A stretch of DNA of 64,000 nucleotides from an uncultured Nitrospirota bacterium. Lineage in GTDB: Bacteria; Nitrospirota; Nitrospiria; Nitrospirales; UBA8639. The DNA lies in NCBI GenBank assembly GCA_937139405.1, contig CAKZPV010000050.1, forward strand, positions 151,799-215,798, written 5' to 3'. Positions 45,341 through 62,191 of the stretch are shown here, piece by piece; position 1 is the first letter of the stretch, and each line of letters opens with the position of its first letter. A program made the position numbers and the translations under genes. The notes beneath the pieces are model-generated. The model had not been told where the DNA came from. It ran no database searches and worked only from the letters and a program-made list of their open reading frames with translations.

Positions 45341-46180
45341 TTGGCAACTAAGGATGAAAACGATATGAAAACTCAAATGTCGGGTACAGCCATTCACCGT
45401 GTTAGTCTCATTCTTTTGCCTTCTTTGCTTTTCTTGCAAGGAGGTGTCTGTCTCGCAGAACTTCAGGGCCTGTCATCTGATTTTTATCAAGAAGAACAAA
45501 GTATAGAAAATCTAGTTATTGATACAAAGGATATGGCCGGAAAGAGCCGTCTTGATCCTTATAGTCAATGGATTCACAAAATTGAGCTTTCCGAAGACAC
45601 TGCGGTATGGAATCAGCGAATGCGGAGGAATTGGAACACGGGTGACACAGCATTATCCGGCCAAGACTGCTCGAAAGGTTCCCCCTGTTCATCGATAGCC
45701 ATAGGGAAGGGAGCCAAGGCCACAACCGGGACCGTCACGGTGGACGGCCCGAAGATCACGGGCACAGTGGGGACCAAATCCCGTGTTACTCAGTCGTCCA
45801 ATATGGCCATTGGCAAAGAGGCCACGGCCAATATGGGAAATGTCACGGTGCACGGCTCAAAAATTAAGGGTATGGTGACCAATCAATCTCACGTTAAGCA
45901 GTCGACCAATAAGGCTATCGGGAAAGGGGCTACAGCTAATATGGGGTCTGTGACCGTGCAAGGCTCGAGAATCAAGGGCATGGTGACCAACCAATCTCGC
46001 GTCAAGCAGTCAATTAACCAAGCCCGCAGCGAAGGCGCCACGGCCAACATGGGGTCTGTGACCGTCGAGGATTCGAAAATCAAAGGGACGGTGACGAACC
46101 AGTCTCGTGTGACGCAGTCGGCTAATAGGGCGATTGGCAAAGGGGCCACGGCCAATATGGGGTCTGTGGGGATCGATTGA
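45341..46180 (+). CDS. secreted protein with 36-aa tandem repeats
   Basis: Signal-like segment then four full repeats of AIGKGATANMGSVTVxxSxIKGxVTNQSxVxQSxNx plus a partial. Confidence 0.8.
   Translation: MATKDENDMKTQMSGTAIHRVSLILLPSLLFLQGGVCLAELQGLSSDFYQEEQSIENLVIDTKDMAGKSRLDPYSQWIHKIELSEDTAVWNQRMRRNWNTGDTALSGQDCSKGSPCSSIAIGKGAKATTGTVTVDGPKITGTVGTKSRVTQSSNMAIGKEATANMGNVTVHGSKIKGMVTNQSHVKQSTNKAIGKGATANMGSVTVQGSRIKGMVTNQSRVKQSINQARSEGATANMGSVTVEDSKIKGTVTNQSRVTQSANRAIGKGATANMGSVGID
45698..46180 (+). repeat. 108-bp tandem repeat, about 4.4 units
   Basis: Unit boundaries at each AIGK/ARSE codon block, 36 codons apart. Confidence 0.85.
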
Positions 46181-47098: not shown

Positions 47099-47630
47099 AA
47101 ATTGTTCCCTCCTAATTGTACTATGTGTATAGATGTACTTGCTTATCATGGTCCAGAGGCAAATGGTAATTGTCTTCGCATGAACCAGCTCTTATTTTTT
47201 TATTATGCCGTATGTCTTTTGGTGCGTACCCTATAAAATTCTCCGAATTAAGGGAAGCCGATACCTAAGAAAGACGAAGAATGAGAACTTTTGCATAAGG
47301 GTTCTATTGTTATTCACCACTTCTTGGATGCGAAAATGCGAGAACTATGCCATTAGTTGAACTCATTCATATTTTCGGTCAGATAGTCTGATTTATCCTA
47401 AAATCCGAGAAGGATCTTGGTGTGGATGAGTCCAATTTACATAGAGGCTGTTAAGAATTCCTCCCTCCTTCTTTCTCCCCTGGCGCGTTAGCTAGATCTA
47501 TTTCAAAATTTTTCTTTGTGGAAATCTAAATCGTTTGCTCAATTTCCCGATCCTCTTGGATAGCCTGACTCTTGAGAGGTAAAGCAATACGATTTGAAAT
47601 GTCTCAAACTGAATTTGCTCTTTTTGAAAT

Positions 47631-47740
47631 GAGATACGATTGTGTATCTGCTCGGATACTTTGTCTGACATAAATAAGGTATTCCCTCCCTGCCGGTAAC
47701 CTTTCTCGTTCTCTCAATCAATCAAGAAAGCAGTTGGCAG
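47631..47740 (+). repeat. diverged third copy of the GAGATACGA leader element
   Basis: GAGATACGATTGTGTATCTGCTCGGATACTTTG and ATCAATCAAGAAAGCAGTT shared in part with 51623 and 56077. Confidence 0.55.
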
Positions 47741-47848
47741 TATGGGAAAATAGGACTCTCGGGTGCAATACCTTATCTGGCACTAAGATTGCTTTATCAA
47801 GAACTAACGGCAAAACGGAAATGATATCTAGACAAGGAGGTCGCTATT

Positions 47849-47935
47849 ATGGATGGGATATTATTAGGCATTACCATTTTCCTAGTTCTTGTTGGCATCC
47901 TCTCTCTTTCTCTTATATGGGGTGACCATCATTGA
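47849..47935 (+). CDS. 28-aa single-TM small protein
   Basis: AAGGAGG RBS then MDGILLGITIFLVLVGILSLSLIWGDHH*. Confidence 0.55.
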   Translation: MDGILLGITIFLVLVGILSLSLIWGDHH

Positions 47936-47971: not shown

Positions 47972-48190
47972 ATGCATACGAACACCTTTCTCAAATTTCC
48001 CATTGAAACAGTTGATCATGAGGCATTTGCTCCTATCTATCCTTTTCGCTTTAACGGTCCAGGGGATCTCTATTGTGGCTGGTGTTTACATGACCTTCGT
48101 TTGGTGAGTCGAACTAAGACGGGAGTAAGCTGTGCAGATTGTGGACAAAACTTAGACATTGCCCCTCAATCTTTCCTTCATGATGATTAA
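47972..48190 (+). CDS. small protein with CXXC...CXXC zinc-ribbon-like motif
   Basis: CGWC...CADC; MHTNTFLKFPIETVDHEAF... Confidence 0.65.
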   Translation: MHTNTFLKFPIETVDHEAFAPIYPFRFNGPGDLYCGWCLHDLRLVSRTKTGVSCADCGQNLDIAPQSFLHDD

Positions 48191-50160: not shown

Positions 50161-50260
50161 CTGACTCTTGAGTTGGGAAGCTGCCCACCCAAGACAGTGA
50201 GACCCCTGGGTTGTGACCTCCACAAGCGTCGTGGTGTTTCTGGAAAGGGCCCAGGGCTAA
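50161..50260. repeat. dispersed hairpin element copy A
   Basis: GACCCCTGGGTTGTGACCTCCACAAGCGTCGTGGTGTTTCTGG, shared with copies at 53822 and 59701. Confidence 0.6.
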
Positions 50261-50607
50261 CTATGTACAGAATAGACGTATTCTGCGGCTTCGTGTTCAG
50301 AATCATAAATCGGGATGATCTCGGAGATATGTGACCAATCTAACTGATTCCGAATATGATCCTGTGGTTTCACAATACTGATCTGTATTCGGAGAAGTCG
50401 CGTGTGATGATACCAGAGAAACAACTCTCCTAGGCCGGTTGAATCAATATCAGTGACGCCTGAGAAATCGAGAACAATATGACGACAGCCTATTTTGGGA
50501 GCTCCAACAATCTGGGCTTGTATGCCGCGTGTGGTGTGACAATTAAATTGCCCTGTGAGGTTGAAAATTCTGGTGTGAGGGTGCTGTTGTTCACGAACCT
50601 GAAGCAT
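50257..50607 (-). CDS. STAS-domain protein
   Basis: IVLDFSGVTDIDSTGLGELFLWY. Confidence 0.85.
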   Translation of the reverse strand: MLQVREQQHPHTRIFNLTGQFNCHTTRGIQAQIVGAPKIGCRHIVLDFSGVTDIDSTGLGELFLWYHHTRLLRIQISIVKPQDHIRNQLDWSHISEIIPIYDSEHEAAEYVYSVHS

Positions 50608-51280: not shown

Positions 51281-51606
51281 TAATAATTGATCCTTTCCCT
51301 ATGCCGAACGAGAAATAGGCGATGTCATCTCAGGTTTTCTTATAGGGCACAAAGTCATAAAATCGAAAAGCTTTCGGATGTTGTAACTATTCCTCTCTAT
51401 TTTCCCACCCTATAAAAAACGCGCAATAAAGTAAACGTCACTGCGCTTCCCCTATCGTTGAAATTGATGGGCGATGATGTTCACTTTTATGAGTGCATCT
51501 CCTATAAGGGGAAGACAAATTCCTAAGCATCTAGCGAATTTTTTCGTCACGAAGATCTTTCTGCCGATCATTTGATCAATCTCGATCTTTTGCTCTCACT
51601 CAGTCA

Positions 51607-51800
51607 ACATACTTTATCCAATGAGATACGATTAAATATCGGTTTAGATACGTTGCTGTTCATGGTGTATGAATGCTCAAACTTTTTCTTCCTTCCCATC
51701 TTCCTATTTCTTCCTATCAATCAAGCAGTTTTCTGAATGTTTGTGAGTCAGTCCAATGCCAGAAAAGACCTGGCATTGAGTTTGCTGTTCCATTATGAAG
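51607..51800 (+). repeat. duplicated leader, copy 2
   Basis: 51674-51786 is identical (113/113) to 56129-56241; GAGATACG...TATCGGTTTAGATACGTTG conserved upstream. Confidence 0.92.
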
Positions 51801-51836
51801 AGCAAATAGAGGACAACTCAAAAACAAGGAGGATCT

Positions 51837-52589
51837 ATGAGCATGATCAATTACATCAAGATTGCGGTCATGAGCGTCGTGATGTTCTGTGCCTTGAGTG
51901 ACATGAGTGTTGCGCAGCAATGGACAGGATCGGCCAATGCCAACGGTAAAATCTGGCGACCGGGAAACGTGGTGATCGGCTTGCAACCGAAAACCAATAG
52001 GATAAAAGACACCGATGCCATACTTGAACTGAGTCGCCCCATAGCCGGGTCAGGTATTCCGTTGATCAGTGCGAAAACCACCTACCAAGACAATATCAGC
52101 ACGATTTTTCAGGTTGATACGAAGGGCGTCTATGTTGGGGGGGCTGTGTCAAAAACCTCGCGATTACCATCGGGCGTCTACGACTTCGCGGTGGGCCGGG
52201 GGGCGGTCATTGGGCTAAATAACATTTCGGAGAAGCTTCCAACAGATTATAAGCTGGCGGTAGGAGGAAAAATCATCGCTGAAGAGGTCCGCGTGAAGCC
52301 GATAGCAGATTGGGCTGACTACGTCTTTGACCCAGACTATTCGCTACGAAGTCTGCCTGAACTGGAAAACTATATCCACACACACCATCATCTTCCAGAC
52401 ATGCCCAGTGCGTCCGAAGTGAAACGAGAGGGTATTCATCTTGGGGAAATGCAGGCAACGCTGCTTCTCAAAATTGAAGAGCTGACTCTCCATATGATCG
52501 AACAGCACAAGACCATTGAGACGTTGCAGCATCAACTTGCCAGCTTGGAACAAAACGAGGATCTCCATCCATCTTCGGATCTTCACTGA
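51837..52589 (+). CDS. exported protein with tail-fibre/S74-associated-like C-terminus
   Basis: Signal peptide; DWADYVFDPDYSLRSLPELENYIHTHHHLPDMPSASEVKREGIHLGEMQATLLLKIEELTLHMIEQ. Confidence 0.75.
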   Translation: MSMINYIKIAVMSVVMFCALSDMSVAQQWTGSANANGKIWRPGNVVIGLQPKTNRIKDTDAILELSRPIAGSGIPLISAKTTYQDNISTIFQVDTKGVYVGGAVSKTSRLPSGVYDFAVGRGAVIGLNNISEKLPTDYKLAVGGKIIAEEVRVKPIADWADYVFDPDYSLRSLPELENYIHTHHHLPDMPSASEVKREGIHLGEMQATLLLKIEELTLHMIEQHKTIETLQHQLASLEQNEDLHPSSDLH

Positions 52590-52621
52590 CTGTCGATCCG
52601 TATGGAAGAAAGGACGAACCC

Positions 52622-53560
52622 ATGAAAACTACCCAACCATGGCTACTCACTGTCTTGCTATTGGCCATCAGTGTTCCCTCCGTTTCTGGAGAATCTGGAT
52701 TGGGAATTAACGAAGTGGTGAAAGCCGGCGGCCAAAAAACCTATTCCCACCCTGAAATGGTTGTTCTCACCGACGGGTTTTGGGCAAAAACGGGATCCAA
52801 TGTCACCGTGAGAACCGCTTTGTCTCTTCTTCAGATGTCAAACGAGCCACCTCCGAGTCCACCACGGGACCCCAATATTACACATGATCGTTCTCCAATT
52901 CCTTTTCATGCGGAGTATTCGGGAGTGCCGGGGACCAAATCTGTTGAAGTCGATATTGGGCTGAACGCGAAGCTTACCAATCCAGCCAACTACTATGCGA
53001 TTAACGCGATTGAGGTCAGCGAGATGGGCAACAACAATCCTTGTTTGCTGAGACTGTGGGGCAATATGGTGGATCCGCGTTATTCGAAGGACCAAGAGAG
53101 ATTACTAGTGGCTCGCTATGAGCTCGATAAATGCTCGCCAGTAATCACAACTATTGACCACAAATTGGTTGGGTTCCAACCCTCCCAAAAGCGATTCATT
53201 CGAGCCCTTCAAGTCTGCATTGGTCACACTTTTGCTTTACCTCAAGAGTTGTATGTTGGGGGGAAATGGGAAATTAAGGGGCTCCGGGTTCGACCTGGCA
53301 GCGTACAATCCAATAGAGAGGGGGTCACGTCCGTGAACAAGGTTCATGAATTTAAACGCCCTAACTGTCTAAAACAAGATGCTATTCCCGGGCCAGGGGA
53401 TTTGAGTCAACCTGGCTGGAGCGCTTGGAACTCTTGTGGTCCAGACCAACTGGCTACCGGTGTGACTCTCTATATCTGGAAAGACAAATTCTTTTCTGGA
53501 ATGGCTATTAAATGTAAGTATGTTCGGCAACTTTCAGGGTCTGCTCCGGCAGAGTTTTGA
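52622..53560 (+). CDS. exported hypothetical protein
   Basis: 312 aa with signal peptide, 33 bp after the preceding gene. Confidence 0.7.
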   Translation: MKTTQPWLLTVLLLAISVPSVSGESGLGINEVVKAGGQKTYSHPEMVVLTDGFWAKTGSNVTVRTALSLLQMSNEPPPSPPRDPNITHDRSPIPFHAEYSGVPGTKSVEVDIGLNAKLTNPANYYAINAIEVSEMGNNNPCLLRLWGNMVDPRYSKDQERLLVARYELDKCSPVITTIDHKLVGFQPSQKRFIRALQVCIGHTFALPQELYVGGKWEIKGLRVRPGSVQSNREGVTSVNKVHEFKRPNCLKQDAIPGPGDLSQPGWSAWNSCGPDQLATGVTLYIWKDKFFSGMAIKCKYVRQLSGSAPAEF

Positions 53561-54164: not shown

Positions 54165-54406
54165 ACTATTCAGATGGACCATACGTGCAGATGACCGTGG
54201 CGTCTGAGTCAACGACATTAGCTTTTGTACGGGGAGATACTCTGGGGCGACCATCTCCTTGAGGTGTACGTCGAGGAAATTATGCCGATCTCAGTTTTCC
54301 GTCCCTTGGGACACCACCCACCATGAGAGAGGCCACAGCGAACAACTGCATCAAGTCCACCACGGTCGGCTCCGGTTTAGCCGTCTGAAATGATTTTGAT
54401 GATCAT
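54165..54406 (-). pseudogene. YpsA-like (putative molybdenum carrier-like) fossil
   Basis: MIIKIISDG*TGADRGGLDAVVRCGLSHGGWCPKGRKTEIG..., paralogous to 58550-58813. Confidence 0.75.
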
Positions 54407-54440
54407 GACAGGAGTCTACTATTCTGAGCCAGAAATTTCT

Positions 54441-55031
54441 TTACAATTTCCCAGCCTGTTGCAGGTCAAACAATAACAACAAGATGACTTGTTCGACGAC
54501 GGCATCAAAAGCATCACTGATGGTCATAGGCTTTAAACCCTCAGGGGCACTCGCGCTACCAATAGTCGAGTGAATGGCGTGTTGGTACTCCTTGGTGATG
54601 GGCTGAGAGTCTGCATGCTCGTAGGCAGCAGAGATGAGATAAGGATCGATCGTTCCCGTTCCAATAGCCCCGAATGTGACACCAGTGGCAACAGGGCTCC
54701 CCTTTGTTTTTCCGCGGGTATTATTGATTACGACTTTCAGCCTTGCCTCTGTCTTGATAGAGAAAACACCTCGCTTAACCGACGAGAAGACATTCGCTTT
54801 GTTCAACACTCGTAAAACTGTTTCTCGTGCCTGTTCCGTCACCGGCGTGAACGGTTGCCCAGATCTTTGAAACTCAACGAATACACCAAGCTCAGGACCC
54901 TTTTGTGTAGTACTCAGATCTTTATAGCTAACAGATTTCAACTGGGGATCTACATAGCCTGTCATGCTGATGCAACCCGAAAGGGTACCGAGAAAGAACA
55001 GCCCAACAATGATGCCCGACGATGATTTCAT
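54441..55031 (-). CDS. lipoprotein
   Basis: MKSSSGIIVGLFFLGTLSGC lipobox; start trimmed. Confidence 0.75.
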   Translation of the reverse strand: MKSSSGIIVGLFFLGTLSGCISMTGYVDPQLKSVSYKDLSTTQKGPELGVFVEFQRSGQPFTPVTEQARETVLRVLNKANVFSSVKRGVFSIKTEARLKVVINNTRGKTKGSPVATGVTFGAIGTGTIDPYLISAAYEHADSQPITKEYQHAIHSTIGSASAPEGLKPMTISDAFDAVVEQVILLLLFDLQQAGKL

Positions 55032-55224
55032 GATGATATTTCCCTTTTTATTCCTTGCTGTGATGGACCAAGTTGACCAGCAAGACCCGGATACGATTCT
55101 TTTTTTAGGAGTCATAGCAAAATCGGAAAAAAAAGAAATCTAGTCTAGGAGATAGATCTAGACATTTGCCTCGGGCAGCTTCGGTAAAGAATTCCAGTGG
55201 TGGGAGACCTGATGCCGCTGTAGG

Positions 55225-55710
55225 CTATACACCTTCTTCAATGATTAGCTGAGTGAGCCTATCATTGAGTTCGGAGTAAAGGACTTCTTTGGCTACGTCA
55301 CCCTGGAACACCTCATAAATTATTTCAATCTCTTCATGAGCAAGCTGTGCCACCTCCTCCAAGTGTTCCATAATGGGATCAATCCACTCTCGCTCAAGGT
55401 CAAATGTGGATACGTCTCTCGACAGTCGAATCGCAAAAAAAGCCTTAAACTGGCTAATCTTAAATTCAAAATTGGTCTGTCGAAATTGCTCGAGTAAGTC
55501 TAAGGATTTTTCGGAAATGTCTCCCGACAGTATTGGTCTTATGCAAGGCAACTGAGGGGCATCATCGAGAGTCGGCCAAGGGTCTCCGAGTTCGTAAATT
55601 CTCGCAACTCGATCCAGAGGCAATAGGGTCTGTTCCGAAATGAATTGAACCGCTCCCTCCATACTTAGTAACTCCGTCATACGGGCATTAATTTTTTCAA
55701 TAGTTTTCAT
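55225..55710 (-). CDS. hypothetical protein
   Basis: MKTIEKINARMTELLSMEGAVQFI...; internal ATG. Confidence 0.55.
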   Translation of the reverse strand: MKTIEKINARMTELLSMEGAVQFISEQTLLPLDRVARIYELGDPWPTLDDAPQLPCIRPILSGDISEKSLDLLEQFRQTNFEFKISQFKAFFAIRLSRDVSTFDLEREWIDPIMEHLEEVAQLAHEEIEIIYEVFQGDVAKEVLYSELNDRLTQLIIEEGV

Positions 55711-55811
55711 GATCAGTACTTGGGGAAATATTTCCCTTTCTAAAAGACAAGGATTCATTCCAATTTTACAAAAACTTTTCAATAAACGGAATAGAGAACC
55801 TAAACGACCTC

Positions 55812-56010
55812 CTAGGCATTCGCCTCAGGTATCTTGTTCACGGTCTGCTTGTCTATTCGAATAGCTGGATAGTCCGCCCTAAAAGCACCTTGGGGTGAGC
55901 CGCTGAAAGCCCATGGTGAAGGGTTACTTCCATGAGTTCTTCAATGACCGCGTTCTCTTGAGCGATGAAACGTTGTGATGATGGGGATTTGGTTGAGGTG
56001 AGGCAGCCTT
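55812..56010 (-). pseudogene. decayed paralogue of the 59262-59594 gene
   Basis: QRFIAQENAVIEELMEVTLHHGLSAAHPKVLLGRTIQLFE*. Confidence 0.75.
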
Positions 56011-56061
56011 CTGTTTCAGCACTGTGCCAGGGTAATTATCTTTTACTCGTTACTCTTCCAG

Positions 56062-56255
56062 TATACTTTATCGATTGAGATACGACCGTATATCGGTTTA
56101 GATACGTTGTCGGTCCTTTGTTCATGGGTGCTCAAACTTTTTCTTCCTTCCCATCTTCCTATTTCTTCCTATCAATCAAGCAGTTTTCTGAATGTTTGTG
56201 AGTCAGTCCAATGCCAGAAAAGACCTGGCATTGAGTTTGCTATTTCTATTTGTTT
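56062..56255 (+). repeat. duplicated leader, copy 3
   Basis: 113-bp identical block with copy 2. Confidence 0.92.
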
Positions 56256-56284
56256 ATGAAGAACATTAAAAATATTTGATCTTT

Positions 56285-56385
56285 GCAACCCTGCATTCAT
56301 CATTAAGGGCTAGCCCCATCCGGCAGGATGGAGACAAAGGGACTCAAGGTTAGTGAAGGACGAGTCCCAGCAGGGATTGACCACG
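56285..56385 (+). ncRNA. three-way-junction structured RNA candidate
   Basis: P1 CCCTGC/GCAGGG (56289-94/56370-75), P2 CCATCC/GGATGG (56316-21/56326-31), P3 GGGACTC/GAGTCCC (56339-45/56362-68). Confidence 0.45.
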
Positions 56386-56454
56386 TGAAGGAATGCTGAC
56401 ACGAGGGAAAAGAAACAGGATTCACCTGACTGGAAAAAGTTATAGGAGAATACC

Positions 56455-56691
56455 ATGATTCAACAATCTATCACCGTTGTCACAAAGTGGATGAAAAAAG
56501 ATAAACTCCTGCTCATAGGATCAGCTGTTAGTGCTTATGGGCAATGGGTTTACACGGAATGTAATTGGGAATGCGAGGATAGTGAATTGAATAAATTGCG
56601 TTCGGGTCGTCCTCTTGAGCAACTTCCTGCATTGATGAAGGAAGTAGAGGCATGGGCAGAAAACAACGGCTTCAAACAAACACCTGTTTAG
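56455..56691 (+). CDS. small hypothetical protein (78 aa)
   Basis: ATG with upstream TAGGAGA RBS. Confidence 0.6.
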   Translation: MIQQSITVVTKWMKKDKLLLIGSAVSAYGQWVYTECNWECEDSELNKLRSGRPLEQLPALMKEVEAWAENNGFKQTPV

Positions 56692-56709
56692 GATGTGTAC
56701 TTTTTTTAA

Positions 56710-57381
56710 TTACTGCCAAGCTTTCACGCAGTCCGAAGTATCATTTCTTGGATTATTTACCATCGGACCTACGAAATGCGCTTCCATTTCCTCCGGCAGA
56801 TAGGGTTGAAGCAGCGACGACAGTATTGTGGGGTCCTGAATACTGGAGTCCAACCACGTATCATAGTCCTTCGGATGAAGAATCACGGGCATTCGGTGAT
56901 GGATGGGTTCAATCACGGCATTGGGACCAATGGTCAACATGGCGCAGGTTTCCAGTGGACTGTTATTACCGTGATCCCAGCGTTCCCACAATCCAGCAAA
57001 ACAAAACATGTGCTGGTCCTTGAATTGTACATAGTAGGGTTGCTTAGCTTTGCCTTCACGTTTCCATTCGTAATACCCATCCGCTAATACCACACAGCGT
57101 TGTTGCTTGAAGGCTTTCCTGAAAGATGGTTTCTCCGCCACCGTCTCACTGCGTGCATTAATCATTTTATTGCCAATGCTGACATCCTTGGTCCATGAGG
57201 GGACCAGACCCCATTTCAATTCAACGTACTCACGATTGGTTGATTCTGCATGAGAACGTACACAGGCAACCATCTGAGATGGGGCAATGTTGTAGTGAGG
57301 TGGACTATCTCGCGGGAAGATAGTGTTCAATGCCTCCGCGAGGTCTCGGTCCTTTCCTTTTCGCGTGAAGCGGCGACACAT
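56710..57381 (-). CDS. SOS response-associated peptidase (SRAP/YedK-HMCES family)
   Basis: MCRRF with catalytic Cys2; PPHYNIAPSQMVACVR; LADGYYEWKREGK; HHRMPVIL. Confidence 0.93.
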   Translation of the reverse strand: MCRRFTRKGKDRDLAEALNTIFPRDSPPHYNIAPSQMVACVRSHAESTNREYVELKWGLVPSWTKDVSIGNKMINARSETVAEKPSFRKAFKQQRCVVLADGYYEWKREGKAKQPYYVQFKDQHMFCFAGLWERWDHGNNSPLETCAMLTIGPNAVIEPIHHRMPVILHPKDYDTWLDSSIQDPTILSSLLQPYLPEEMEAHFVGPMVNNPRNDTSDCVKAWQ

Positions 57382-58585: not shown

Positions 58586-58813
58586 CGGTCCATACATGAA
58601 GATGACCGTGGAATCAGAGTCAATCACATTGGCTTTGGTGCGGGGGAGATACTCTGGAGAGACCATCTCGTTGAGGCGATATTTGACCGGGATAACCTCA
58701 GCTATGCGCCCATTCGGACACCAACTACCATGAGGCAGACCAGAGTGCATGGTTGCATCAAGTCCCCCACGGTCAGCACCCGTTTGGCCGTCTGAGATAA
58801 GTTTGGTGATCAT
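58550..58813 (-). CDS. short YpsA/putative molybdenum carrier-like protein, probably truncated
   Basis: MITKLISDGQTGADRGGLDATMHSGLPHGSWCPNGR. Confidence 0.6.
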   Translation of the reverse strand: MITKLISDGQTGADRGGLDATMHSGLPHGSWCPNGRIAEVIPVKYRLNEMVSPEYLPRTKANVIDSDSTVIFMYGPLGQKGLLLQEK

Positions 58814-58848
58814 GACAAAGAAGATTGAAATCTCTATCGAATGATCTC

Positions 58849-59139
58849 TTACCTCTTTGGGGCTGTTGAGGTTTTGGGATCTGAGGAACTCCCTGAAGGA
58901 GAGTGAGAATCAATAATCGTTCCTTTCAGAAGTTCTCCTTGCAGATGCTGCTCTCGATGTTCCAATGCCTGGTTGATACAAAACCGCAAACGTTCTAATT
59001 CTTGAAACGCTAAACTCTCGGGATTCTCGCTGAATTTGTTAGCCAAGTTGAGACACTGGTCATCCGGAGGCTCTTGTGCGGAAACCAAGCCACCACTGAA
59101 GATGATTCCAAGGAGCAAGCTGGTCAATAGGTATCTCAT
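58849..59139 (-). CDS. small exported hypothetical protein
   Basis: MRYLLTSLLLGIIFSGGLVSA signal peptide. Confidence 0.65.
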   Translation of the reverse strand: MRYLLTSLLLGIIFSGGLVSAQEPPDDQCLNLANKFSENPESLAFQELERLRFCINQALEHREQHLQGELLKGTIIDSHSPSGSSSDPKTSTAPKR

Positions 59140-59261
59140 AGTTCACCTCCTAGGCGCGAAAGCCAAGACGAGTTATCGTGTGACCATCTACCCTACAAAA
59201 ACTTGTGAAAAAAGGAAATAGATAATCAAGAAGGAAGGGTTAAGCATTCGCCTCAGGCATC

Positions 59262-59594
59262 TTATCGGCTGCCTGCTTGCCCCATTCTAACAACTGGATG
59301 GTGCGGCCTAAATAGTACCTCGGCTTGGTTGGCAGAGAGGCCATGCTTTAGAACCACTTCCATGAGTTCTTCAATGACCGCGTTCTCTTGCGCGGTGAAG
59401 CGTTGTGATGAGGAGTCGGTGGTGTTGGAAGAATCAGCTTTCTGTTTAAGCTGTTTAGCAAGAGTAATGATTTCTTCCTTTGTAATGAGGCCTTTTTGTT
59501 CCAGTAATTTGCCAAGTGCTTCCAGCTCATACATGTTATCAATAGAGAGGTCACAGAGGTTCTTAAAGTCTTCGGGGTCGATGGGGTCAGGCAT
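59262..59594 (-). CDS. hypothetical protein, C-terminus apparently frameshifted
   Basis: Compared with the fossil at 55.9 kb, the frame changes after AEVL; the alternate frame ends GRTIQLLEWGKQAADKMPEANA*. Confidence 0.55.
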   Translation of the reverse strand: MPDPIDPEDFKNLCDLSIDNMYELEALGKLLEQKGLITKEEIITLAKQLKQKADSSNTTDSSSQRFTAQENAVIEELMEVVLKHGLSANQAEVLFRPHHPVVRMGQAGSR

Positions 59595-59700
59595 GGGAAT
59601 AGCCTATAGCGAGGTTAACGGGGATGCAATGATAGGTCGCTCTAAATCTTTGGAGGGGTGGCAGTCTATAGGGTTATGAGGCAGGCTGAGAATTCATAAT

Positions 59701-59795
59701 ACGAACTCTTGAGTGGGGAGTAGTCGCCCGACTCTAGGCAATGCGAGCCCTGGAAATTGTGACCGCCACAGGGATCGTGGTATTTCGTGGCAGAT
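59701..59795. repeat. dispersed hairpin element copy C
   Basis: ACTCTTGAGTGGGGAGTAGTCGCCC...GAGCCCTGGAAATTGTGACCGCCACAGGGATCGTGGTATTT. Confidence 0.6.
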
Positions 59796-59883
59796 TCTTT
59801 CCAATGAATACAGATGGTGGACTCAGTCTAATCTGAAGAAGCCCAGTAACAGGTTTTACGACATCGGCTACCGATTTCGGTGC

Positions 59884-60819
59884 TCAAGGTGTGTCTGCTG
59901 CCTCCACGGCGTTGGCAAACTTCTTGGCTACGAGTTCAAACCCTCTATCTGTTGGATGAAGCTCATTGTCCCACCACTTCTTGTAGGTCGAATCATTTGG
60001 TAATGTCGTGCGAAAATCTACGTGTGACACGTGTTTGAAGTCCGAAATCTTGCTTACGCCCAGTAACATGTTGTTTAAACGGTCAATGAGGTCTTGAACC
60101 ATAGCTATTCTCTGATTCATATTTTGGTATCCTTTTTCTCGGAACCCTGGCTCAAGCCATGGGCCGAACCACAAATACCCACGACCGTCAGGCACCGCAT
60201 AGTCATACCCATGAAGTAGAATCGGAATCCTCTGGCCTAACCGCTTCTTACATACCTGGGTCACAGCACTGATGATGGTCACATAAGCGTCTTTAATTCG
60301 CTCCTCAACGATCTCCTTTACCAAGGGAATATTCAAACCTGGTTTTGGTGCACTCGCGTGGTTGAGTAAGACCGCAAATTCTTTTCCTGCTACGTCATTT
60401 CCACCACCCGAAAGCAAGATGGCCTTGGGCATGTTACCGCCTCGAATGACCTTTTCAATTTTTCGAGTAAATTTCTCAAGTTGCCCTTCGTTGTAAGCCA
60501 TATCCTGAATACGATCTCCAGGGCTCGCGACATCCTCCACTTCGTATCCATAATTACGTTCTAATAAGGAAAGTATGTCTGGTCCTGGGTAGTCGAACCA
60601 TGAATCCCCCTCAGCTACAAGCACCCCATTATGTTCTGGACCTCCTACTGCTGCAAGTAATTTAGGTGAAACGGTGGACGGAAGCTTTTTTGAAACCGCC
60701 GAATGTTTTCTCAAGACGGCTGCTCGTATTTTCAAAGCCTTATCTCGTTCCGCCAAGACCTCCATAGCTTGTCGATTCCCTATGACCATCGCTCGATTCG
60801 TGGACGGATCCTTCTTCAT
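59884..60819 (-). CDS. SGNH/GDSL-type hydrolase-like protein
   Basis: EGDSWFDYPG, SGGGNDVAG, NELHPTDRGF. Confidence 0.8.
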   Translation of the reverse strand: MKKDPSTNRAMVIGNRQAMEVLAERDKALKIRAAVLRKHSAVSKKLPSTVSPKLLAAVGGPEHNGVLVAEGDSWFDYPGPDILSLLERNYGYEVEDVASPGDRIQDMAYNEGQLEKFTRKIEKVIRGGNMPKAILLSGGGNDVAGKEFAVLLNHASAPKPGLNIPLVKEIVEERIKDAYVTIISAVTQVCKKRLGQRIPILLHGYDYAVPDGRGYLWFGPWLEPGFREKGYQNMNQRIAMVQDLIDRLNNMLLGVSKISDFKHVSHVDFRTTLPNDSTYKKWWDNELHPTDRGFELVAKKFANAVEAADTP

Positions 60820-61020
60820 CGCACACTCCTTTCTGTAAAGGTGAATAGCCCGAGGCCATGAATCCCCTTGACGTTCCTTCTTGTAAAGGACTGCTCCACG
60901 TCAAAGACCATCACGCCTCCAGAAAGAGACTGTCAAAGAGATTTTATGTATTCCTTAGAAATAAAGGAATAGACGTCGGAGTATACCCACTCCTTTTTTT
61001 TCTTTTAGATAGTCGTGGAA

Positions 61021-61695
61021 TCAGCGGAATGTCTGAATACAGGCCTCACTATCATTCCTCGGATTATTCACCATCGTACTCACCGGATAGGCTTCCATTT
61101 CTTCCGGTGGATAGGGTTGTAATAAGGATGAGAGTAACTCTGGAGTCTGAATGCTCGGGTTCAACCACGTATCATAGTCACACGTCTGAAGAATCACGGG
61201 CATTCGATGATGGATGCGTTCCATGATAGTGTTTGGTCCAGTAGTTAGCATGGCACACGTTTCCAATGGTGGGCCGTTATTGTCTTTTGTCCATCGTTTC
61301 CATAACCCCGCAAAACAAAACATGCGCTGGTCCTTGAACTGAATGTAATAAGGCTGTTTATTCTTGCCCTCCCGCTTCCATTCATAATAGCCATCGGCTA
61401 ACACCACACAGCGATGGTATTTTAAGGCTTTTCGGTAGGAAGGTTTTTCAGCCACCGTTTCTGCACGGGCGTTTATCATCTTGTGGCCTATACTGACATC
61501 CTTAGCCCAGGACGGGACGAGGCCCCACTTCAATTCAACGTAATCACGTGTGGGTGATTCGGGGTTATTACGGACACAGGCCACCATTTGGGATGGCGCG
61601 ATGTTATAACGTGGTGGATTATCGAGGGGAAAGATGGTGTTTAACGCCTGGGCGAGCTGTCGATTCTTTTCTTTGTGCGTGAAGCGGCCACACAT
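61021..61695 (-). CDS. SOS response-associated peptidase (SRAP/YedK-HMCES family), second copy
   Basis: MCGRFTHKEKNRQLAQALNTIFPLDNPPRYNIAPSQMVACVR. Confidence 0.94.
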   Translation of the reverse strand: MCGRFTHKEKNRQLAQALNTIFPLDNPPRYNIAPSQMVACVRNNPESPTRDYVELKWGLVPSWAKDVSIGHKMINARAETVAEKPSYRKALKYHRCVVLADGYYEWKREGKNKQPYYIQFKDQRMFCFAGLWKRWTKDNNGPPLETCAMLTTGPNTIMERIHHRMPVILQTCDYDTWLNPSIQTPELLSSLLQPYPPEEMEAYPVSTMVNNPRNDSEACIQTFR

Positions 61696-61705
61696 GGGGG
61701 AGGCG

Positions 61706-62191
61706 CTACGCTCCCTCCTCCAGTTCGCGCGTGGTTTGATAAGTGCCAAAGGCTAGTCGAATCCGATGCTCCAACTGCTGTACCCACAGCAGGGCCTCTT
61801 CATGAATGCGCTCTCCATCGAATTTAATGTTTTTCCCCTCGACAATCGTCAACCACCACTCGCTTTCCGTGTACGAAATGTTGACCGCGACATAATGTTT
61901 GGAGCGTCGAAGGGTGGATGCGCGAATTTGGCCTGGCTCAATTTTTTCCGAGTTCCATCCAGTATAGCCGCGGAGTGCCCCAAAGATTTCCCCCGCCACC
62001 ATTTGCCCAGTGGACTGGGGGTTATCCCATTGGGTTTTATGGCTATTTTGAAGAGATTTCAGAATGATTGGTTTTACCTGATCTAGAGGAATATTCGGGG
62101 GGATGAGGTTTTTGGTGGGTGCAGGAATAACGGATGTATTGCAGGCGCTCAACACGAGCGCGGCAAGGATAAGACCTAGGGATCTGTTCAT
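61706..62191 (-). CDS. lipoprotein
   Basis: MNRSLGLILAALVLSACN lipobox. Confidence 0.8.
   Translation of the reverse strand: MNRSLGLILAALVLSACNTSVIPAPTKNLIPPNIPLDQVKPIILKSLQNSHKTQWDNPQSTGQMVAGEIFGALRGYTGWNSEKIEPGQIRASTLRRSKHYVAVNISYTESEWWLTIVEGKNIKFDGERIHEEALLWVQQLEHRIRLAFGTYQTTRELEEGA

Follow-up and report, generated by a model that had tools for sequence, protein, structure and literature searches.

A duplicated non-coding block carries a predicted sigma-54 promoter whose GATAC array recurs in the genus Nitrospira

The window, the whole 64,000-nucleotide stretch of Nitrospirota DNA analysed here, contains two identical 113-bp blocks that form the promoter-proximal part of a larger regulatory module. 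Very probably this module is a sigma-54 promoter controlled by an enhancer-binding protein (bEBP) bound to an upstream GATAC array, with an IHF- or HU-type protein putatively looping the DNA, and the two blocks are identical through recent copying. The three copies in the window are named W0, W1 and W2, W1 being the block first pointed out, and the genome here is G000. To judge from the sequences compared, the predicted sigma-54 promoter and its activator array recur throughout the genus Nitrospira.

The duplicated block and its copies

The blocks at 51674–51786 (W1) and 56129–56241 (W2), both on the + strand, match at 113 of 113 positions as the first-pass annotation had reported, and the polypyrimidine tract and perfect 9-bp inverted repeat that it described are both found in the block. 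Its statement that the flanks differ holds downstream, with 19 of 60 matches directly after the block, but not upstream, where 51598–51655 and 56052–56109 are 81% alike, and the homologous unit is thus about 190 bp long. It had also proposed a search of the genome and its relatives for further copies, and these were found: a third, diverged copy (W0, 47625–47795), overlooked earlier, lies in the window, and a fourth lies on another contig (G000:C3:268722–268882, − strand). The genome is 4.46 Mb in 51 contigs, and because W1 and W2 share one 215.8-kb contig yet have different flanks, an assembly collapse, raised at the outset as a possible artefact, is unlikely.

A decayed tandem segmental duplication (54176–57381 and 58587–61749, with approximately 75–80% identity in blocks) includes W2 in one copy only. 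It also holds remnants of other ORFs, as well as two paralogues, 56710–57381 (−) and 61021–61749 (−), which we take to be of the SRAP type (YedK-like).

Promoter anatomy

Alignment of twelve copies reveals a common order of elements, with GATAC/GTATC half-sites followed by a pyrimidine-rich spacer, an IHF-type site, a −24/−12 element and, mostly, a conserved leader containing a ribosome-binding site. The half-sites alternate in orientation with an 11-bp period, three or four being present in most of the twelve copies. GGCA and TTGCT are invariant within TGGCAY-N5-TTGCT, the −24/−12 signature of sigma-54. The 113-bp block extends from the spacer through the IHF-like site to the final −12 base, and its last 16 bases are TGGCAT-N5-TTGCT. 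We found no good match to a sigma-70 promoter in the block.

In W1 the predicted upstream activating array occupies 51614–51651 (+), with TTATC at 51614, GATAC at 51625, ATATC at 51636 and GATAC at 51647, all at 11-bp spacing. An IHF-like site, AATCAAGCAGTTT (51719–51731, +), is located 52 bp before the −24 box of the predicted sigma-54 promoter, TGGCATTGAGTTTGCT (51771–51786, +), from which transcription would be expected to start near 51797 according to the known geometry of sigma-54 promoters. Because this expected start falls downstream of the block, the block is not the 5′ UTR of the W1 promoter. W2 has the same predicted array (TTATC, GATAC, ATATC, GATAC with 11-bp spacing; 56068–56105, +) and the same predicted promoter, TGGCATTGAGTTTGCT (56226–56241, +), and has lost the conserved leader that follows it. 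W0 has a predicted activating array (GATACGATTGTGTATCTGCTCGGATAC, 47633–47659, +) and a predicted promoter with a −24/−12 match (TGGCACTAAGATTGCT, 47778–47793, +), and a 4-bp insertion interrupts its IHF-like site. The W1 and W2 IHF-like sites agree with the IHF consensus WATCAANNNNTTR at 12 of 13 positions, only the last base being off, and the multi-genome consensus AATCAAGCAGTTG, which in most copies stands 52 bp ahead of the −24 box, matches it fully.

The genome encodes rpoN (PF04552, E 8.8e-59, at G000:C47:18717), and the best match to the himA model scores 105 bits against a cut-off of 120.25. With a hand-weighted promoter score of at least 14.8, only three sites are found in the whole window, both strands included, which is the number of modules there.

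Genes behind the modules

The first gene behind W1 (51837–52589, +) encodes a secreted-type protein of 250 aa with a C-terminal domain also present in Bacteroidota proteins, and it has a relative with 57% identity in Nitrospira RBC048 (locus L018). Since the nearest named relative of this gene comes from a Nitrospira MAG, the genome here is taken to be Nitrospira-like. Upstream of this relative there is a GTATC-N6-GATAC pair (2829 and 2840), a further GTATC at 2808, and a −24/−12 match, GAGGCAAGGACTTTGCT, at 2916, in a region where the DNA model gives no significant match. Control of the W1 type thus appears to have persisted in RBC048 despite divergence of the DNA, an argument for W1 as the working promoter of its operon. 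The second gene (52622–53560, +) encodes a 312-aa protein of no family with a signal-peptide-like start, and it is partially matched 74 bp downstream of the RBC048 relative. The first ORF behind W2 (56455–56691, +) has a ribosome-binding site, would follow an untranslated leader of about 200 nt, and encodes 78 aa with no homologue in the fetched loci. None of the genes behind W1 or W2 has a family match above cut-off.

W0 precedes a 28-aa peptide with a single membrane helix (MDGILLGITIFLVLVGILSLSLIWGDHH, 47849–47935, +), similar to peptides behind the modules of relatives, and a 72-aa CxxC...CxxC protein (47972–48190, +) whose homologues occupy the equivalent position in many relatives. The relatives' modules usually precede a membrane-helix peptide of 22–28 aa (e.g. 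MDWTTLWMIETVIAFLGVFSLHWFRG) and then a protein of 66–83 aa, in which two CxxC pairs are common. Pairwise differences among seven versions of the 26-aa peptide are distributed 64:21:102 over codon positions 1:2:3, the pattern that a translated peptide should show. At seven loci (L099, L105, L109, L112, L114, L117 and L118) the CxxC protein is replaced by a 64–84 aa protein (MQQxNRPLTYDEKKAAxAAF...) for which there is no convincing family match. We also note that a STAS-domain protein of the anti-sigma-antagonist type is encoded at 50257–50607 (−), with homologues a few kb from the module at about ten of the relatives' loci.

Elsewhere in the genome, arrays with promoters are located before cytochrome c genes (contig C4), before repeat proteins resembling the one encoded at 45341 in the window (C8), before a substrate-binding protein and a histidine kinase (C31), and before an operon for a CxxC peptide, a cupredoxin and a bEBP (also C31). 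The window protein (45341–46180) is composed of AIGKGATANMGSV units and is of the same kind as the two C8 proteins that lie behind a GATAC/sigma-54 promoter.

Distribution of the module and the array

Searching 198 related genomes at the DNA level produced weak matches in several members of the same genus; a low-scoring one within a bEBP ORF (L004) appeared to be a chance hit. A sequence-only model recovers four copies in the genome here. Of the 50 family genomes, 24 have a match at E ≤ 0.01 (best E 6e-36), and of the 198 genomes in the order-wide sample, 22 have one at E ≤ 0.001, all falling within two of the 35 genera. The array alone, searched as GATAC-N6-GTATC-N6-GATAC with at most one mismatch, gives 112 matches (overlapping arrays being counted twice) in 21 of the 22 genus genomes, and the reversed-pattern control gives none. 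Plasmid and phage collections contain no match to the element, and no terminal repeats or transposase were seen on reading through the flanks of the copies. The earlier suggestion of a mobile promoter module comes close, as a copied non-coding regulatory module precedes unrelated genes.

Coupling between array and promoter was assessed for arrays with enough flanking sequence, using a hand-weighted score of at least 12.9 within 40–200 bp. A −24/−12 match pointing away from the array is present for 28 of 42 distinct arrays (four from promoter-model loci, the others from searches for the array or its operons), compared with none of the 42 when the same bases are taken on the opposite strand. The coupled arrays lie 80–175 bp from their predicted promoters and in the correct direction. 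Coupling is incomplete because 14 of the 42 arrays have no convincing −24/−12 match, and the protein that binds the array may therefore act elsewhere too. These 14 include a conserved group (L221, L222, L239, L240 and L248; e.g. GATACAGGGTCGTATCTGATTGGATAC) before a gene for a membrane-anchored protein of about 400 aa, with no recognizable sigma-54 promoter.

A candidate activator and a proposed mechanism

About 25 bEBP genes are present in the genome, and the best candidate for the activator, identified by gene neighborhood only, is the bEBP of the C31 operon, a 459-aa protein with PAS, Sigma54_activat and Fis HTH domains. It leads because its gene order and GATAC promoter are conserved in six genomes (G000, G001, G003, G006, G008 and G009). 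Four of the five relatives have the protein at 88–95% identity across most of the aligned length, and in G003 a contig end interrupts it.

We propose that the phased GATAC/GTATC array, about 110–150 bp upstream, is the binding site of a dedicated AAA+ bEBP, and that the DNA is looped by a bending protein of the IHF or HU type bound some 50 bp ahead of the −24 box. The bEBP would then hydrolyse ATP and open the RNA polymerase–sigma-54 complex at TGGCAY-N5-TTGCT. Such a switch would turn on the secreted-protein operon behind W1 (51837–53560) and the peptide/CxxC micro-operon behind W0, perhaps together with the short ORF that follows W2.

Alternative explanations

The array parts of W1 and W2 match at 41 of 56 positions (15 differ), compared with 113 of 113 for the blocks (Fisher p 1.5e-8). 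The first-pass annotation had offered recent copying or strong constraint as the source of the identity. The former is retained; constraint alone is not sufficient, because in the ten other copies 85 of the 121 aligned columns of the block are variable. Recent copying accounts best for the perfect match; in it an event of about 113 bp, putatively gene conversion, would overlie an older duplication of about 190 bp. That purifying selection by itself preserved the block is very unlikely; the element does look functional and is conserved across the genus, but it tolerates variation in those 85 columns, and another pair from a single genome, L047 and L052, is more alike in the array part (86%, 44/51) than in the block (73%, 81/111), the opposite of W1 and W2. 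The inverted repeat raises a different reading, that the 9-bp hairpin and the T-rich DNA after it would function, once transcribed, as riboregulator, sRNA target or terminator. The repeat spans 51754–51778 (+; arms 51754–51762 and 51770–51778), its right arm overlapping the −24 box, and it forms a perfect stem with a terminator-like score; the predicted W1 fold of 51674–51836 is also more stable than shuffled sequences (z −2.6), which we take to be a by-product. However, the full stem is private to W1 and W2 and missing from the ten other aligned copies, with individual pairs disrupted in as many as 9 of the 12 sequences. On the alignment the stem forms in 63.6% of cells, as against 63.5% after shuffling, and paired changes are no more frequent than in the shuffles, so the fold is not kept in relatives, and the four invariant pairs of the consensus fold all lie inside the promoter. 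The block has no family match in Rfam, its invariant part is TGGCAY-N5-TTGCT, and it ends at the last −12 base, upstream of the predicted start. We therefore reject a structured cis-regulatory RNA as exceedingly improbable, and with it the earlier proposals of a shared 5′ UTR or sRNA target.

The remaining alternatives concern the role of W2 and the protein that binds the array. It is quite possible, although we lean somewhat against it, that W2 is a dead copy, a promoter duplicated into a decaying segment where it drives nothing useful. This would apply to W2 only and is compatible with recent copying of a sigma-54 promoter module. It accords with the loss of the conserved leader after the −12 box, with a 78-aa ORF that lacks both family and homologue, and with the remnants of segmental duplication around W2, but the W2 array, spacing and −24/−12 element are intact, and the copy appears recently homogenized with W1. 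For the array itself, DNase I footprinting has mapped binding of the Pseudomonas syringae protein RhpR to GTATC-N6-GATAC (PMC4191427), and because half-site and spacing are the same, a response regulator of this kind could be the binder, modulating a sigma-54 promoter whose bEBP binds elsewhere or acts free of any site. The arrays that lack a sigma-54 promoter are in keeping with this. We nevertheless consider it unlikely, as most arrays are tied to −24/−12 elements at 80–175 bp and in the right direction, as bEBP enhancers should be, and a bEBP gene lies within a GATAC-controlled operon in six genomes. A bEBP bound to the array thus remains our preferred reading.

Wider significance

Nitrospira play a central part as nitrite oxidizers (and complete ammonia oxidizers); they are difficult to culture and manipulate, and their gene regulation is poorly understood. 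It is close to an even question, with doubt slightly the heavier, whether the modules represent a genus-wide, undescribed sigma-54 regulon in which helically phased GATAC arrays would be read by a PAS-type one-component bEBP, micro-operons for 22–28 aa membrane peptides and CxxC proteins would be the core output, and the module would be duplicated and homogenized between loci, recruiting genes. An enhancer motif with a control count of zero allows the members of one regulon to be listed in any Nitrospira genome, and it suggests that membrane peptides and CxxC proteins that are conserved and unannotated make up a main output. W1 and W2 offer a clear example of promoter duplication and homogenization, a possible route of rewiring.

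Comparison with known systems

A search of open-access papers, which is weak evidence, found no description of the array or of a Nitrospira sigma-54 regulon. The long conserved upstream region with activator and sigma-54 motifs that is common to many PEP-CTERM genes, described in 2006, provides a precedent for such an element, although its activator motif was found through TTTACA, in Proteobacteria only (PMC1569441), and the motif here is GATAC. PEP-CTERM/PrsR control appears unlikely because the activator motifs are unlike and the three bEBPs that were scored, out of about 25 in the genome, all fall below the TIGR02915 cut-off of 502.6 bits (best 397.5; 334.8 for the C31 candidate). The likeness to RhpR is one of half-site and spacing; the RhpR motif is described as one inverted repeat, located at the promoter of RhpR itself and at others, whereas here a three- to four-unit array is coupled to a −24/−12 element. 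The closest resemblance is to enhancer-dependent sigma-54 promoters, which have the same TGGCAY-N5-TTGCW core, dyad activator sites 80–175 bp upstream, an IHF-like site in between (in most copies here), and rpoN and bEBPs in the genome; the module here differs from these in having three or four alternating GATAC/GTATC half-sites at strict 11-bp spacing. The module is thus of a kind already known, and its GATAC-array form appears, from the comparisons made here, to be new.
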